Assembly (NCBI GenBank): GCA_030833725.1
Contig: JAURGP010000014.1
Span: 1 to 43,265 of the forward strand
Direction of reading: 5' to 3'
Source: Candidatus Kapaibacterium sp.
Lineage (GTDB): Bacteria > Bacteroidota > Ignavibacteria > Kapaibacteriales > Kapaibacteriaceae
Length of the DNA: 43,265 nucleotides
Positions 21,299-28,217 of this stretch are shown in pieces. A program made the position numbers and the translations under genes. The notes beneath the pieces were generated by a model. The model did not search any database, was not told the DNA's origin, and was given only the letters and a program-made list of their open reading frames with translations. Position 1 is the stretch's first letter. Every line of letters starts with the position of its first letter.

Positions 21299-22348
21299 TT
21301 ATTGTGCGGCCAGCTTGCGAGACGGATCAGAAAGCGCCGAAAGGAAGGCCACGATAAGGTCGCGGTCCTTGGTCTCCAGCTTCCGACCGAGTTGGTGCCA
21401 CGCCATCGACGTCACAGCAGAATCCAGCGTAGGAATCGAACCGTCGTGATAGTACGGTGCCGTCAGAGCCACGTTACGCAAACTTGGCACCTTGAACATC
21501 AGGCTGTCAGCAGGGTCCTTGGTGACTTCGTACCGACCAGCATCCTTGGAGTCATACGGGTTCACCAGTCCGAGTTTTTGATACATCGACCCACCAAAGG
21601 TTGGGCTCACGTGGCATGTGATGCATCCGGTGGAGATGAACGTCTGCAAACCGCGCTTTTCAACGTCGGTGAGTGCCGACGATGTTCCGGAGACGTAGTC
21701 GTCGTAGCGTGACTTGGACACGAGCGTACGCTCAAAGGCAGCAATAGCTGTTGCAACGTTATGGTACGTGATCGGCTGCTTGGCCTGTGGAAACGCTGCA
21801 GCGAAGGCCGTCTTGTACTCGTCGATGGCAGATAGGCGGTCTTCCACATCCTTTTCGCTGGCCATGGCCATTTCCGCTGGATTCAGAATCGGACCCTTGG
21901 CTTGCTCAACAAGATCCGCAGCACGTCCATCCCAAAACTGGACGAAGTGGAAACCAGCGTTCAACACCGTAGGTGAGTTGCGCGTACCGGGTGTACCATG
22001 TGCACCTGGCGAAGTAGGCAGATTGTCGACGCCCGACTTTCCTCCATCCACCATGTGGCAGGAGTTGCACGACTGTGTGCCAGTTGCCGACAACTGGGTT
22101 TCGTTGTAGAGTTTCTCCCCCAGCGCAACCAACTCTGGAGTGTCCGTACTTGCACCCGGCATCATGTCGGGCAGTACACCGAACAGCGCTTTTGCTTGAG
22201 CCAAGAGGGTTTCCTCCTCTTCAGGGGTAAGGGGCTCGACGGTTAGGGTGGCCGTCTCTTCCGGTGTGGTCTCCGGCTTTGAGCAACCTACGATTCCTCC
22301 AACAGCAGCGGAAGCAAGCAGAAGTGCGAGGAGCACAGCTTTCATCAT
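21299..22348 (-). CDS. Dihaem cytochrome c peroxidase/MauG-family lipoprotein
   Basis: 349 residues. A type II signal peptide ends at C22 (G-I-V-G-C), so the mature protein is probably lipid-anchored. Two haem c sites are visible: C94-N-S-C97-H98 and C242-I-T-C245-H246; the family motifs GTPGTRNSPTVLNAGF and FKVPSLRNVALTAPYYHDGS follow in the usual order, the latter holding residues near the peroxidatic haem. Bacterial CcpA-type enzymes reduce hydrogen peroxide with electrons from small cytochromes or cupredoxins in the periplasm; MauG-like members oxidise other substrates, and sequence alone does not separate them here. The gene is divergent from purB, with its own promoter. Confidence 0.92.
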   Translation of the reverse strand: MMKAVLLALLLASAAVGGIVGCSKPETTPEETATLTVEPLTPEEEETLLAQAKALFGVLPDMMPGASTDTPELVALGEKLYNETQLSATGTQSCNSCHMVDGGKSGVDNLPTSPGAHGTPGTRNSPTVLNAGFHFVQFWDGRAADLVEQAKGPILNPAEMAMASEKDVEDRLSAIDEYKTAFAAAFPQAKQPITYHNVATAIAAFERTLVSKSRYDDYVSGTSSALTDVEKRGLQTFISTGCITCHVSPTFGGSMYQKLGLVNPYDSKDAGRYEVTKDPADSLMFKVPSLRNVALTAPYYHDGSIPTLDSAVTSMAWHQLGRKLETKDRDLIVAFLSALSDPSRKLAAQ

Positions 22349-22478: not shown

Positions 22479-23771
22479 ATGATACCTCGCTACACCTTGC
22501 CGGAAATGGGCCAGATCTGGTCGGATGATAACCGCTATGCGATCTGGCTAGAGATCGAGATTCTAGCCTGCGAGGCGCAAGCGCAGCTTGGACATATTCC
22601 GGAGGATGCCGTTCGGGAAATCCGAGCCAAGGCGCAGTTCAATAGCGAGCGAATAGCTGAGATCGAGGAAGTGACGAAGCACGATGTGATCGCCTTCACC
22701 ACAAACGTGGCGGAATACGTTGGCCCGGCCTCGCGCTACATCCATCTCGGGATGACGTCCAGCGACGTGCTCGACACCTGTCTGGGAGTGCAACTCCGTC
22801 AGGCCGGTGAGAAGATTCTCGCCGATCTTGAGCGCCTGCGCACGGTGATTGCACGCAGGGCCCAAGAGCACAAGTACACCGTCTGTATCGGACGCACCCA
22901 CGGCATCCATGCCGAACCAACAACCTTCGGCCTGAAACTGGCACTCTGGTACGAGGAATGCAAACGCAGTATCCACCGCATGCGGCAAGCGATCGACACG
23001 ATTGCTGTAGGGCAGATCTCTGGAGCCGTTGGCACCTTTGAGCACCTTTCGCCGGACGTTGAGGCCTATGTGTGCAGCAAGCTCGGACTTCGTCCCGCAC
23101 CAGTGAGCACACAGGTCATCCAGCGTGATCGCCATGCCGAGTTCCTCTCCACACTTGCCATCATCGGCTCCTTCCTTGAGAAAATCGGTACCGAGGTGCG
23201 GCACCTGCAGCGAACCGAGGTCCGTGAGGCCGAGGAATACTTTTCGGCTGGTCAGAAGGGCTCTAGCGCCATGCCTCACAAGCGTAACCCGATCGTCTCT
23301 GAGCGGCTCTGCGGATTGGCTCGACTGCTTCGCGGTAATGCCATGGCAGCCATGGAAAACAATGCCCTGTGGCATGAGCGCGACATTTCTCACTCTAGTG
23401 TCGAGCGCGTGATTTGTCCAGACTCTACCATCACCCTTGACTACATGCTTGCCCTCAGTATCAAACTCATCGATACGCTACTGGTGTATCCGGAAACGAT
23501 GAAGGCAAACATGGACCGCACCCATGGGCTGCCGTTCTCGCAGTCGGTGCTGCTGGCTCTCGTGCGTGCGGGAGTGAGTCGTGAGGACGCCTACGTTCTG
23601 GTGCAGCGGAATGCCATGCAGACGTGGGAAACCGGCACGCCACTGCAAACGCTTCTGACGGCAGATGCAGACGTTACGGCACACGTCTCTGCCGAGCAGC
23701 TGGCTGACATCTTCGATGAAACACGGATGCTGAAGAACGTTGACGTCATCTTTGAGCGCGTCGGTCTCTAG
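22479..23771 (+). CDS. purB: Adenylosuccinate lyase
   Basis: 430 residues, the Bacillus/Thermotoga size class. It cleaves SAICAR to AICAR and adenylosuccinate to AMP, releasing fumarate, in purine synthesis. The fumarase-superfamily signature [10 protein letters not shown] is intact, with the flexible-loop serine, and the upstream [11 protein letters not shown] and [14 protein letters not shown] segments supply the other active-site residues. The N-terminus [26 protein letters not shown] is standard, fixing the start. Single-gene unit. Confidence 0.97.
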
Positions 23772-23793: not shown

Positions 23794-24447
23794 TCAGCGG
23801 ACTACCATTACGCCATCTGTCGTAGAGAGAACATCCAGGAACTCAACGCCGCGCTTGGAGCACACTTCTGCTAGGGAGGCTCCAAGGTATCGGCCGTAGA
23901 GGTCCCAAACCCCACCGTGTGGAGAGCAGGTACCAGGTGCTTGGGCTCGCGATATCCATGGAGAAAACAAACGTGGACGTCCCTGTACTGAACAGACATC
24001 ACGCACGATCAGCCTTCCAGAGCGAGCGACCTGTACCGTGGAACCATCGGAGTGGTCTGATGCAAGGATGCGTGTGCCAACGATGCGTACGCCAATCTGT
24101 GAACTGTCGCCCAAGACACACGTGTACATGATTTGAACACGCTCGGTGCGCGCCGGACCCGGGGCAAGTCGGATCGTGACATAACGCAGGATGTCCCTAC
24201 TTCCCACCCATCGGTAGGCCCCTTCCGGCAGCAGCACACTGGCGCGCGTGCGGATCTGAAGCTGGAGAGTCAACGACTGTCGCAGCATCTGCATAATCCG
24301 GATATCGACGGGCACGCCAATACGCTCGCCGGGTGTAGCCGTGGTATCCCGACCAGCGATGAGAATCTCACTTCGGGCCACGAGCGAGGATGTCGCTACC
24401 AGGACCGCGAGAGACAGCGCCAGCGCTGTACATCGCCATCGTACCAT
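23794..24447 (-). CDS. Exported protein with cohesin-like beta-sandwich opening and T9SS-tail-like end
   Basis: 217 residues, not matched to a named family. A signal peptide (WRCTALALSLAVLVATSSLVARS) is followed by GRDTTATPGERIGVPVDIRI, resembling the first strands of cohesin or related beta-sandwich domains (PG-x-x-x-x-PV), and alternating hydrophobic strands. The final 40 residues, G-V-W-D-L-Y-G-R-Y-L-G ... F-L-D-V-L-S-T-T-D-G-V-M-V-V-R, recall the type A sorting domain of type IX secretion (DL-GR ... G-Y-V-V), with the central part divergent. If right, the protein is secreted to or anchored on the cell surface. Its start overlaps the preceding gene by 52 bp. Last gene of the minus-strand run, convergent with purB. 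Confidence 0.65.
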   Translation of the reverse strand: MVRWRCTALALSLAVLVATSSLVARSEILIAGRDTTATPGERIGVPVDIRIMQMLRQSLTLQLQIRTRASVLLPEGAYRWVGSRDILRYVTIRLAPGPARTERVQIMYTCVLGDSSQIGVRIVGTRILASDHSDGSTVQVARSGRLIVRDVCSVQGRPRLFSPWISRAQAPGTCSPHGGVWDLYGRYLGASLAEVCSKRGVEFLDVLSTTDGVMVVR

Positions 24448-25835
24448 ACCGTGAGTGCTCCGTCTATGGGTACAAGAATGTTCTGACCGAGTGGAAACAG
24501 GAAGCTCTCTTCAGCGCCAACCACAATGGATGCGTGTTCGAACTCCACCGGATAGTCTGTCGCCAGAAGGATCACCTCCCTGCCATGGCGGCCACCTGCC
24601 AGCCCCTGCACCACCGATTGGATTACGTTGCCACGGAGGATCACCACTTCGCCCTCTCCAACGGGTACGGCTCCGGACGGTCCAGCTGCCGCCGCGATGG
24701 TGGTCGTACCGGTACGGTACCGTGCTCCGCTAGTACGCATACTGTAAGCATGCGTCACCGTTTGACCACTACCCGGTAACCACTGCAACTCTGGTGGACG
24801 GTCCTGGGGACTACTGCCAAGATAGACGCTGCCGTCGGTCACGGCCAGAGCGATGGCTCCTGGCACTGCCGACAACAGTGCGCCAACCGCCGTAGCTGTT
24901 CCCGGCGCGAGGCTGACGGCCTCGGCCTTCAGACCAATGGCAATACCACCATGCGACGTGGTTTCGTGGTGTGCTGTAGCCAGCACGCCGATCGACGTCA
25001 TCGCCTTTGATCCACTTCCGCCACGACGACTACCCCCCCACACGCCAACCAACGTGTCGGACGTGGCACTTGAATTCGTGGCAGCAACGCCCATCACTCC
25101 TGTGCGGGCGCGTGGCGCAATTGACGCATACGCTGCCGAGACCACGCTGCCCACTAGTGCCGTGCCATTGGTGTTCCCTTGCGCATACACTCCAACGTGA
25201 TCCTCCCCGGATACGGTGATATCCACACCGCGTTGAGGCGCCGTGGTACCGCCGATCCGTATTGCTGTGCCACTACCGGCCGTCAGAGCATTGTAGAGCA
25301 GGCCCGTACCACCTGTGACGTCAATGGCCGTTGCCAGCGTAGGACGCGTCCCCGACGGCCCCCCTAGACGAATGCCGGTACCAATGCCGTTCTGTAAACT
25401 GCTGATGGTCATTCCGGCATGCTCACTGCCAGAGGTTCCCACCATGCGTATAGCAATACCCGTGGAGTGTTGCGTCCCGGTAAGGTCTACATCTAGCCCC
25501 CTACCACCCTCCTGGGTGATGGAGGCAATACGAACCATGGTTCCTGGAACCGTACCCGTCATCGCGCCTATGGCCACCGGTCCACGCAACCACGTTTCAC
25601 CTGCGCCCGACACTTCGAGCGATCGCAGTGAGCCCAGCGACCCCACCTGGATCTGGACGGGCTGAGGAATCATCGACGCAGTACCCAGCACGAGCGGCAT
25701 GGTGGAGCGCGTCCCGACGAACGCACCACTCGCACCACTCCACGCTGGTGGAGATACCTCCAGACGCGTTGTGCGCAGTTCCTGACAGATCGCAGCTGTT
25801 GTACCGAGGACCATCATGATCACCATCCAGCGCAT
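24396..25835 (-). CDS. Exported repeat-rich fibre-like protein
   Basis: 479 residues; unrecognised as a named family. After a signal peptide (ends A-A-I-C-Q), the middle is glycine-, threonine- and serine-rich with a repeated phrase of the form TG-x-A-I-R-x-G-G (near GIAIRMVGTSG, GTGIRLGGPSG, GTAIRIGGTT) and later phrases G-V-x-G-x-A and G-V-Y-A, as expected of a beta-helix or trimeric beta-prism stalk. The C-terminus (EGEVVILRG ... GREVILLATD ... ALTVWYDGDVQRWRCLS) is like the closing domain of Bacteroidota tail-fibre-like surface proteins, whose last strand has the pattern L-x-Y-D-x3-W-R. Placed between two other exported proteins, 12 bp after the gene upstream. Likely a surface or secreted fibre; binding partner unknown. 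Confidence 0.72.
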   Translation of the reverse strand: MRWMVIMMVLGTTAAICQELRTTRLEVSPPAWSGASGAFVGTRSTMPLVLGTASMIPQPVQIQVGSLGSLRSLEVSGAGETWLRGPVAIGAMTGTVPGTMVRIASITQEGGRGLDVDLTGTQHSTGIAIRMVGTSGSEHAGMTISSLQNGIGTGIRLGGPSGTRPTLATAIDVTGGTGLLYNALTAGSGTAIRIGGTTAPQRGVDITVSGEDHVGVYAQGNTNGTALVGSVVSAAYASIAPRARTGVMGVAATNSSATSDTLVGVWGGSRRGGSGSKAMTSIGVLATAHHETTSHGGIAIGLKAEAVSLAPGTATAVGALLSAVPGAIALAVTDGSVYLGSSPQDRPPELQWLPGSGQTVTHAYSMRTSGARYRTGTTTIAAAAGPSGAVPVGEGEVVILRGNVIQSVVQGLAGGRHGREVILLATDYPVEFEHASIVVGAEESFLFPLGQNILVPIDGALTVWYDGDVQRWRCLSRSW

Positions 25836-25847
25836 AGGATCGTTGCG

Positions 25848-26762
25848 TTACGGATTGAAGATGGCCCATGCAAGACGATCGGACGCTGTGAGCGGCACCG
25901 ATGTTTCCACCTGCAACGTCCCAGATGCCGCATCGATTCCGGTGACGGTCACACCAATGGTCGAACCGGGCGACGTCATCAACGTCACGACCGGCACCGA
26001 CGCCGACGTCAGCACGCCCACTCCTACCGTAATGGTATGCTGCCACGTGTTCGGCGTAGGAGTAAACACGCCCATGGGACTCTCATTGAATGGTCGAACC
26101 CACGAGAGCTCCCCCGTTGGCGTCGTGCTCAGCACATAGCCATTCTGCGATGGAACCGATGCCGGCAGTGTGTAGGTGATCGACGACGTCTGCTCTCCCG
26201 CACGGATTGCCGTGAACTCCGTACCAGCTGCCGCCGGCTCGGCAAACCGAATCTCGGATGCTGGCCCCCGCGAGGACAGCTGCACGGTGTTGGTAAAGTC
26301 GTAGGGGGCCTGAGGCGTGCTCGTGCCGAAGCCGATGTAACCCTGTGTGGGCCCGGCAACACCAACAACGCGCATGACTTCGGCGCTGTTCGCTGCTAGG
26401 ACGAGATCCTGGGCGTTGGCCGTACCGAGGAACTGCTCATCGGCACCAGTGCCTCCAGCCGTGATCGACGATCCTTGCAGGCTCCAGTACGGTGAATCGG
26501 CCCACGTAAGCTCTGCAATAGAACCCGTCACTGCCGAGACGGTCAGCGATTGTCCGCCGACGGCTGGTTCGGCCGGAAGCCGGAGCGTATAGGGCGTAAC
26601 ACCTTGTTCGGGTGCGGTGAGTGAGATACTCTGTGCCTGAGCGTTTCTCAGATGTAGGGTGCCTGTTGTCTGACTTTGGCCGTATCCAACCTGCAGGCCG
26701 ACTATGGCCATCAGGAAGTAGGTCATCAGAAAGCAGGTTGTGGTAAGTGTCGATCGAGTCAT
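25848..26762 (-). CDS. Exported tail-fibre-like protein
   Basis: 304 residues from MTRSTLTTTC at 26762; a longer reading to 26951 has no signal sequence and runs into the upstream gene. A signal peptide (FLMTYFLMAIVGLQVGYGQ) is followed by a domain starting TGTLHLRNAQAQSISL...YTLRLPAEPAVGGQSLTV, then ITYTLPASVPSQNGYVLSTTPTGELSWV. These are typical phrases of Bacteroidota fibre/collar-like proteins in which TLP--xP--x-G-x-L-T/S-T introduces a beta strand. The C-terminal 35 residues (V-T-G-I-D-A-A-S-G-T-L-Q-V ... PL-x-A-S-D-R-L-A-W-A-I) are alike to the end of the neighbouring 219-residue protein. No enzyme motif. Confidence 0.75.
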   Translation of the reverse strand: MTRSTLTTTCFLMTYFLMAIVGLQVGYGQSQTTGTLHLRNAQAQSISLTAPEQGVTPYTLRLPAEPAVGGQSLTVSAVTGSIAELTWADSPYWSLQGSSITAGGTGADEQFLGTANAQDLVLAANSAEVMRVVGVAGPTQGYIGFGTSTPQAPYDFTNTVQLSSRGPASEIRFAEPAAAGTEFTAIRAGEQTSSITYTLPASVPSQNGYVLSTTPTGELSWVRPFNESPMGVFTPTPNTWQHTITVGVGVLTSASVPVVTLMTSPGSTIGVTVTGIDAASGTLQVETSVPLTASDRLAWAIFNP

Positions 26763-26814
26763 AACAACAGTTCTCCGTATGGTGATGGGATGAAACAGTA
26801 CACGTACGATGTAC

Positions 26815-27474
26815 CTACCACCGTATGCACCACGAGAGCGTTTCGTGACGCGAGAGTGGCGCTGCGGTAAAGAGTTCAATCGTGTTGGTAGCCAGATCAA
26901 CCGTGCCGATCCGTACGGCAATGGACGTCGGAGCTTCCACTCGTGCATCAATCCAATAGCGAGGTGGAACGGGTTGCTGCGGCGTGATGAGGAATCGTGT
27001 TTGTCCCTGGACCGGAGCTACAACTCCGCACTCTGTCGTAAGAGGCGGTGGCGCGCCACCAGACCGCACAGAATCAGCAACGAGCGCATGGGATGCCAGC
27101 ATGGCGTATGGTACGCTGAGGACCGGCGTACGTGGCAGCAGTTCCTCACCGCCATCCACACGAACTCCAAGCCAATGCGGCCCACTGGTGAGGAGTTCTA
27201 CCGGCACAGCCCTGATGCTTCCGAGATACAGCGTGACGACTCCCCTGGTCACGTCGGTCGTAAACGACTCCGAATGTTTGGCAACACCGCCGTCGACCGA
27301 CGTAAACCAGGAGACCTCGACGGTATGAATTCCGGAGACCGGCTGACCGGATCGTTCCAGATACATTTGCACGGGAATGGTATGCGGAATGATACCACTG
27401 GGCTGGCCGTGCAGCAGGACTGGTATCAACAACACCGTCAACCGAACCAGGACATATCGCAGAGGGGCTTCCAT
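26815..27474 (-). CDS. Exported protein related to the fibre-like neighbour
   Basis: 219 residues with an N-terminal signal peptide (LVRLTVLLIPVLLHGQ). The sequence contains LSVPYAMLASHALVADSV, a phrase (VPYA--A--A) recurrent before the stalk of Bacteroidota tail-fibre-like proteins, and an immunoglobulin-like beta-rich N-terminal half (TIPVQMYLERSGQPVSGIHTVEVSWFTS). Its C-terminus, I-A-V-R-I-G-T-V-D-L-A-T-N-T-I-E-L ... APLSRHETLSWCI, parallels the end of the next protein. Three cysteines. The opposite strand carries an open frame of similar size, but it lacks a signal peptide or any motif. Unknown function; probably a surface complex partner. Confidence 0.7.
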   Translation of the reverse strand: MEAPLRYVLVRLTVLLIPVLLHGQPSGIIPHTIPVQMYLERSGQPVSGIHTVEVSWFTSVDGGVAKHSESFTTDVTRGVVTLYLGSIRAVPVELLTSGPHWLGVRVDGGEELLPRTPVLSVPYAMLASHALVADSVRSGGAPPPLTTECGVVAPVQGQTRFLITPQQPVPPRYWIDARVEAPTSIAVRIGTVDLATNTIELFTAAPLSRHETLSWCIRW

Positions 27475-27495: not shown

Positions 27496-27783
27496 CTACA
27501 CTGAATGTGACATCCACCACAGGGCAACGACCCAGCACAGCCACCCCACCGAGCCCACCAGGGCATGCATGCGGCTTCCGGCCTTCGTCATCGGCATCAG
27601 TGCGAGCATTACCAGGACGGGAACAAGGAACCAGGATGGTTCCATGAGCACGGCCAGGGCGGCCGTGGCACAGGAGACGAAGTAGAAGACGTGATGCCAC
27701 TGCCCAAACGATCTTCGACTAACGGTGGCCGAGATCCCCAAGGCCATCGTAACGGTGTACACTGCGGCGGCGACCACCATCAT
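27496..27783 (-). CDS. Small polytopic membrane protein, unknown
   Basis: 95 residues from the ATG at 27783, chosen because GGGGGAG lies five bases upstream and the start follows the preceding stop by 11 bp; the open frame extends to an ATG at 27828, overlapping the upstream gene by 34 bp. Three to four hydrophobic segments (MMVVAAAVYTVTMALGI; VFYFVSCATAALAVLM; WFLVPVLVMLALMP; GWLCWVVALWWM). No family recognised. Position between the ftsY-linked 140-residue gene and the exported-protein genes suggests that it is part of that transcript. Confidence 0.6.
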   Translation of the reverse strand: MMVVAAAVYTVTMALGISATVSRRSFGQWHHVFYFVSCATAALAVLMEPSWFLVPVLVMLALMPMTKAGSRMHALVGSVGWLCWVVALWWMSHSV

Positions 27784-27794
27784 CGGCTCCCCCA

Positions 27795-28217
27795 CTACGG
27801 CTGGTCGATAGGAGAGGACAACAACCATGCGTCGTCAACACGTGCGAGTGTGCGCGCAAACTCAGGTTGTGTTGCCAAGTACGGACGGATCCACCGATAC
27901 CAGGAGGGGTTTACGCCGTGATCGTTCATCACGCCAATCACGGTTGACTGCTGCGCACGACCTGTCTCCGCAAGATCCAGCAGCACGATACGAGCAATCT
28001 CCAGATCCGCCGGTGACGGAGGCACACTGTCGGTGGCCGCGCTCGGCCAGACGGCCTCCGACAGAAACACCGACGTTCGAGCATTCGGTGTTTGCAGAGC
28101 CGTTACAACAGTGCGGATGAACGGTGCAACACTGAACACTTCATATCCTAGGTAGCCCATGGCCGTGACAACTGCCAGGGAGAAGAGCCAGCGACGCATG
28201 GTTCGGATGCTAGGCAT
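27795..28217 (-). CDS. Membrane-anchored protein of unknown function
   Basis: 140 residues (134 if the ATG at 28199 is used). One N-terminal helix (RRWLFSLAVVTAMGYLGYEVF) then a soluble part with a helical C-terminal domain (LEIARIVLLDLAETGRAQQST ... WYRWIRPYLATQPEFARTLARV). No known family. The start at 28217 overlaps the ftsY end by 8 bp, so the two are likely translationally coupled. Confidence 0.62.
   Translation of the reverse strand: MPSIRTMRRWLFSLAVVTAMGYLGYEVFSVAPFIRTVVTALQTPNARTSVFLSEAVWPSAATDSVPPSPADLEIARIVLLDLAETGRAQQSTVIGVMNDHGVNPSWYRWIRPYLATQPEFARTLARVDDAWLLSSPIDQP

Follow-up and report, generated by a model that had tools for sequence, protein, structure and literature searches.

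A conserved four-gene operon encoding a putative MAT-like surface fibre in Candidatus Kapaibacterium

In the window analysed here, a stretch of 43,265 nucleotides of Candidatus Kapaibacterium sp. (contig JAURGP010000014.1), we found an operon of four genes, P1 to P4, that is conserved throughout nearly the whole family and whose products look like the parts of an adhesive surface fibre. We estimate a probability of around 0.6 that P1-P4 encode one or more MAT-like/tail-fibre-like adhesive surface fibres, split into subunits, together with a cohesin-like partner that is delivered by the type IX secretion system (T9SS). A MAT-like surface fibre is favoured on the basis of the signal peptides, the predicted folds of the tips, the existence of relatives in which the modules are fused, and the neighbouring T9SS-tailed cohesin-like genes.

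The four genes and their surroundings

The initial annotation described four consecutive minus-strand genes with signal peptides, and these were indeed recovered. According to the open reading frame calls, P1-P4 follow each other on the minus strand with a spacing of 52 nt between P1 and P2, a spacing of 12 nt between P2 and P3 and an overlap of 52 nt between P3 and P4. Each of the four proteins opens with a hydrophobic Sec-type signal sequence, as judged by eye. The features are:

Two small genes, 27496-28217, minus strand: 110 and 140 amino acids, located between ftsY and P1
P1, 26815-27474, minus strand: 219 amino acids; signal peptide, beta-rich domain P1N (27064-27405), C-terminal knob P1C (26818-27039)
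P2, 25848-26762, minus strand: 304 amino acids; signal peptide, P2N (26487-26684), fibre module P2M (26097-26486), tip P2C (25851-26096)
P3, 24396-25835, minus strand: 479 amino acids; signal peptide, glycine-rich repeat region P3M (24816-25505), tip domain P3C (24399-24728)
P4, 23794-24447, minus strand: 217 amino acids; signal peptide, cohesin-like domain (23983-24372), short T9SS-like tail (23797-23982)
purB, 22479-23771, plus strand: convergent with and downstream of P1-P4; flanking marker, outside the unit

A start of P2 at the ATG yields 304 amino acids and a start at an upstream TTG 367, and the signal sequence of P4 is encoded mostly within the 3' end of P3, through the overlap of the two genes. 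The genes of 110 and 140 amino acids are possibly co-transcribed with P1-P4; scans for promoters and terminators gave nothing beyond chance. No family of weight was found in Pfam, NCBIfam or PHROGs for any of the P1-P4 proteins of the window. Between tsaB and purB the window holds a cytochrome c peroxidase-like gene with two CxxCH motifs (21299-22348), which occurs at the same place in just one of the relatives examined (L093).

Conservation and selection

A search for the operon in related genomes had been proposed as a check, and it showed that the operon extends well beyond one strain to nearly the whole family. More explicitly, when 60 relatives were searched, P2 and P3 turned up in 22 family members (Candidatus Kapaibacterium-type; 23 genomes in all), the one exception being 80% complete. 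In the regions recovered from 20 relatives, P1-P2-P3-P4 kept their order and orientation, with the convergent purB after them where that side was assembled; the gaps in the locus map represent contig ends. One extra gene usually separates P4 from purB in the relatives. In most of them a gene of ~505 amino acids lies at this position (L081:6698-8212 and equivalents), in which cytochrome-like CxxCH and FG-GAP-like repeats can be recognized by eye; it is absent from the window. In three relatives the upstream neighbours of P1 differ, yet P1-P4 remain together, which identifies these four genes as the core unit. When 123 genomes of the order were searched, P3 in its full length was confined to the Kapaibacterium-type family, the other families having the C-terminal domain only. 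The titles of matching public records refer mostly to Candidatus Kapaibacterium, Ignavibacteria and Bacteroidetes MAGs.

The dN/dS ratios, calculated for the one pair that was unsaturated, were 0.14 (P1), 0.05 (P2), 0.12 (P3) and 0.15 (P4). Furthermore, the distances between the P2, P3 and P4 sequences correlated with those of purB, r being 0.39-0.57 (no more than 1 of 999 permutations), and for P1 this correlation was weaker (r 0.22, 57 of 999 permutations). The low dN/dS together with distances that track purB, weakly in the case of P1, suggests that P1-P4 are functional genes that are under purifying selection and have been inherited mainly vertically.

Predicted tips of P2 and P3 and the question of a phage origin

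AlphaFold2 monomer models of P2 and P3 were built from the family alignments. Structure prediction, likewise proposed beforehand, was successful in part: tip folds were obtained for P2C and P3C, whereas the remainder of both proteins was modelled with low confidence (mean pLDDT 57 for P2 and 51 for P3, with only the C-terminal domains being confident). Low-confidence stems are what would be expected when one chain of an intertwined trimer is modelled. P2C (residues 223-304 of P2) was most similar to the Pam1 tailspike, in its receptor-binding domain (68 residues at rmsd 2.0, Z 8.4), with further similarity to other tailspikes, the C-domain of K1 lyase (Z 7.0), an R-pyocin fibre (Z 6.2) and Helix pomatia agglutinin (2cgy; 73 residues at rmsd 2.8, Z 6.0); a Z below 8 may reflect merely a common arrangement, and the fold assignment of P2C past the top match with Pam1 is suggestive only. 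P3C (residues 375-479 of P3) matched the Solidus gp83 tailspike (Z 10.5, rmsd 2.3, 86 residues), the chaperone-substrate complex 6o38 (Z 8.8), which we take to be the secreted protease CpaA with its chaperone, and, in the range where the same limit applies, TSP4 (Z 7.2) and T4 gp9 (Z 6.2); T4 gp10 was found as well. With Foldseek alone, P2 and P3 gave nothing under E 0.001 against the PDB, and a comparison of the four family profiles with the sequences of solved structures gave nothing convincing. Based on the models, the C-termini of P2 and P3 are predicted to be tip folds of the phage tailspike/lectin type, in agreement with the tail-fibre-like character attributed to both proteins earlier; fold likeness alone does not imply glycan binding. 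The repeat TG-x-A-I-R-x-G-G that had been reported for P3 is present, but in just two clear copies, GTGIRLGG at 152 and GTAIRIGG at 189. A profile comparison between P2 and P3 yielded a match in the signal peptide only.

Given the tail-fibre and tailspike folds of P2C and P3C, one might assume that P1-P3 are tail-fibre genes kept from a phage, tailocin or contractile-injection-system remnant. The initial annotation considered a phage remnant unlikely and we find it extremely improbable, considering that P1-P4 carry signal peptides, that no window protein had a PHROGs match under E 0.05, and that a tblastn search of P2 and P3 against 50,697 phage records gave no match. Moreover, IMG/VR contained no relative of P3 and only three weak partial matches to the P2 module, no phage gene is evident near P1-P4, and the neighbours are housekeeping genes, also in the relatives. 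The search for a sheath gene found none in 21 of the 23 family genomes, the window genome included, and gave a Phage_sheath match in two relatives. The specific case of a contractile-injection-system fibre was rejected, as no sheath gene was found in the window genome.

Shared modules and the giant fibre proteins

The similarity between the C-termini of the 219- and 304-residue proteins, noted from the sequence at the outset, turned out to represent homology. The family alignments of P1C and P2C matched in hhalign with a probability of 95.8 (E 7e-9, 87 columns), and the P1C HMM recognized each of the 14 P2 proteins, with E-values from 2e-12 to 4e-6; 500 shuffles gave no match. The P1 of the relatives contains a 28-residue segment with the motif VTS[VI]NE[IL]AG that is missing in P1 of the window, where it was lost in frame.

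HMM searches indicated that P1N is homologous to the start of giant fibre proteins encoded in the same genomes. Searches with HMMs of the separate pieces, in the order as well as in the same genomes, revealed that P1N opens giant proteins in which P2 modules are repeated; some of these giants end in P3C. Single large polypeptides were found to combine P1N-(P2M)n, P1N...P3C and P2N-(P2M)n-P3C. In 19 of the 23 family genomes there were matches to MAT_N (NF053851), many of which correspond to the P1N region of the giants. The P1N-bearing proteins matched NF053851 with E-values between 8e-8 and 4e-3, all under the curated cut-off, and for P1 itself the best orthologue reached E 0.11. The putative link between P1 and MAT_N runs via the giant paralogues and not through P1 directly.

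From the gene order and the fused homologues we infer that P1-P3 may be joined in one fibre. Every one of P1-P3 has a signal peptide and a C-terminal domain of its own, and the three could in principle be independent secreted lectin-/tail-fibre-like proteins (e.g. glycan-binding exoproteins) that are grouped for co-expression and do not share a fibre. This seems unlikely to us, because the modules of the three proteins are fused in single polypeptides of relatives and the gene order is fixed across the family.

A recurrent fibre, cohesin-like and barrel locus

A search with the cohesin-like region of P4 yielded numerous matches. The surroundings of short cohesin-like genes were analyzed for 34 loci, taken from the listed matches in frames of at most 500 amino acids outside the P1-P4 operon. 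Upstream sequence was available for 31 of these, and in 25 the gene upstream of the short cohesin-like gene contained P1N, P2M or P3C (L178 was counted from separate searches and L181 has an intervening overlapping frame). Such an upstream fibre gene was found for none of 15 long cohesin-like frames (Fisher p 1e-7 versus the short ones). In 30 of the 34 loci the short cohesin-like gene was directly followed by a gene for an outer-membrane barrel; the barrels are mutually homologous and often have an OmpA domain. A barrel gene also lies beside most of the long cohesin-like genes, so this association is not fibre-specific. A TIGR04183 tail above the cut-off was present in 4 of the 8 short cohesin-like paralogues tested. 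The window genome also has a fibre/short cohesin-like/barrel locus (contig C33); the P1-P4 operon itself is without the barrel/OmpA gene that is found beside giant fibres.

The recurrent locus was observed at L176-L200, L158, L163, L244 and L246, where a giant tail-fibre-like gene, a short cohesin-like gene (often T9SS-tailed) and a barrel gene (sometimes OmpA) occur together. At L201, L205, L210, L212, L213 and L215 a cohesin-like protein of 1430-1460 amino acids is accompanied by related barrel/OmpA genes on both sides. The giant fibres at L161:1145-6616 and L158:2467-15897 have antifreeze beta-roll matches, and the former also has UspA1 adhesin-repeat matches. By eye, the giants of L161 and L158 end in T9SS-like tails, which are not recognized by TIGR04183.

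It is possible, albeit doubtful at this stage, that the order carries an undescribed fibre system in which tail-fibre/MAT-like proteins would be held on the outer membrane by a T9SS-delivered cohesin-like adaptor and, at most loci, by a cognate barrel/OmpA protein. The window would then contain the split-subunit version, and the adaptor of the relatives would be provided with AgmC-like gliding/adhesion domains. We found no literature that combines tail fibre, T9SS and OmpA.

P4, its shortening and the export of the fibre

The relatives' P4 proteins measure 600-980 amino acids versus 217 in the window, where about 400 residues are lacking. In the relatives a glycine-rich domain follows the signal sequence and precedes the cohesin-like domain, and it matched the N-terminal model of AgmC (NF047640) in 10 of the 10 full-length P4 orthologues scanned, with a best E of 3e-58 and all matches staying under the curated cut-off. 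AgmC is, by its NCBIfam name, an adventurous gliding motility protein. The AgmC N-terminal domain is absent from P4 of the window. Among the relatives with assembled loci, the domain loss in P4 and the loss of 28 residues in P1 were observed in the window genome only. This genome encodes two other AgmC-like proteins, neither of them at P1-P4. By its sequence, P4 of the window is a deletion derivative from which the AgmC-like domain was lost in frame and in which the signal sequence, the cohesin-like domain and the tail were retained. The window thus holds a pared-down version of the putative family apparatus.

The fact that P4 is about 400 residues and P1 28 residues shorter than in the relatives could also be taken to mean that the operon is decaying in the window species and that the apparatus no longer works. 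We regard this as quite unlikely, given the four intact frames, the signal sequence and cohesin-like domain that remain in P4, and the resemblance of the short P4 to the standard short cohesin-like gene that adjoins giant fibres. Misassembly as the cause of two clean in-frame losses is unlikely too.

The cohesin-like opening proposed for P4 finds support through the relatives, as an HMM made from their cohesin-like region matches P4 of the window. The Pfam Cohesin model (PF00963), however, does not match the window P4 and stays under its cut-off even in the relatives, two of which had P4 matches at E 0.0027 and 0.07 (best 18.3 bits versus a gathering cut-off of 24.1). When the P4 profile was compared with solved structures, cohesin entries were the sole suggestive matches (E 0.09-0.29).

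Evidence of a T9SS was obtained: SprA occurred in 21 of 22 genomes, and the window genome has 52 T9SS sorting-tail matches. TIGR04183 gave no match at E 5 with P1-P4 of the window, and among the P4 orthologues 1 of 10 matched weakly (E 0.0069). The T9SS-like tail that had been noted in P4 is therefore not recognized by this model, but the short paralogues do carry T9SS-type tails. As P1-P3 have no recognized T9SS tail, the export route suggested earlier for the whole set is indicated for P4 only, through its relatives, with the machinery being present in the genome. The absence of a recognized tail would also suit an envelope scaffold, in which P1-P3 reside in the periplasm or at the inner leaflet of the outer membrane and P4 alone reaches the surface. 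Considering the receptor-binding tip folds of P2C and P3C and the kinship to giant fibres adjoining T9SS-tailed genes, such a scaffold is decidedly unlikely.

Proposed organization of the fibre

In the preferred reading, a MAT-like surface fibre, P1 would form the base and P2 and P3 would constitute the shaft and the glycan-binding tips, probably as trimers. P4, delivered via T9SS, would hold or mature the fibre on the outside of the outer membrane. Because the P4 of the relatives carries an AgmC-like glycine-rich domain, adhesion tied to biofilm formation or gliding would be the likeliest role; the window species retains a minimal form without this domain.

Comparison with known systems

The operon had been put forward as a candidate for an undescribed apparatus, but wholly undescribed it is not, since it resembles both MAT and phage tail-fibre proteins. 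Like the members of the Bdellovibrio MAT superfamily (PMC10769870; NF053851), the proteins are bacterial, exported and tail-fibre-like, with a signal peptide followed by a beta-rich N-terminal domain. The variable adhesive C-terminal tips of MAT may be compared to the predicted tailspike/lectin folds of P2C and P3C, and the P1N domain of the giant paralogues matches MAT_N, be it under the curated cut-off. Glycan-binding tips were described on the same kind of protein in the MAT study (PMC10769870). Unlike in MAT, the putative base, shaft and tips are here distributed over three genes and accompanied by a cohesin-like partner, fused forms being found elsewhere in the order. In addition, the window organism has a T9SS, no S74 domain was found here, and P1 lacks a direct match to MAT_N.

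The folds of P2C and P3C are shared with phage tailspikes and the R-pyocin fibre (Pam1, Solidus gp83, TSP4, K1 lyase C-domain), whereas P1-P4 have no close phage sequence match, possess signal peptides and appear to be vertically inherited. P2C resembles the H-type lectin Helix pomatia agglutinin in its predicted fold (Z 6.0) but has no Pfam match. The N-terminal domain of AgmC (NF047640) is shared by all full-length P4 orthologues scanned and was lost in P4 of the window. Half of the short cohesin-like paralogues tested resemble T9SS type A cargo (TIGR04183), whereas the model does not recognize the tail of P4 in the window. The tail-fibre-like proteins described here represent a bacterial trait that is probably vertically inherited, defines the family and has no apparent link to phages. 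According to the MAT authors, the surface partner of the fibre base/N-terminal domain is unidentified (PMC10769870). The pairing of fibre genes with short cohesin-like and barrel genes across the order provides specific candidate binding partners for the fibre base, and if the reading of fibre, adaptor and barrel is true, it would name candidates for the partners of the fibre base at the cell surface.
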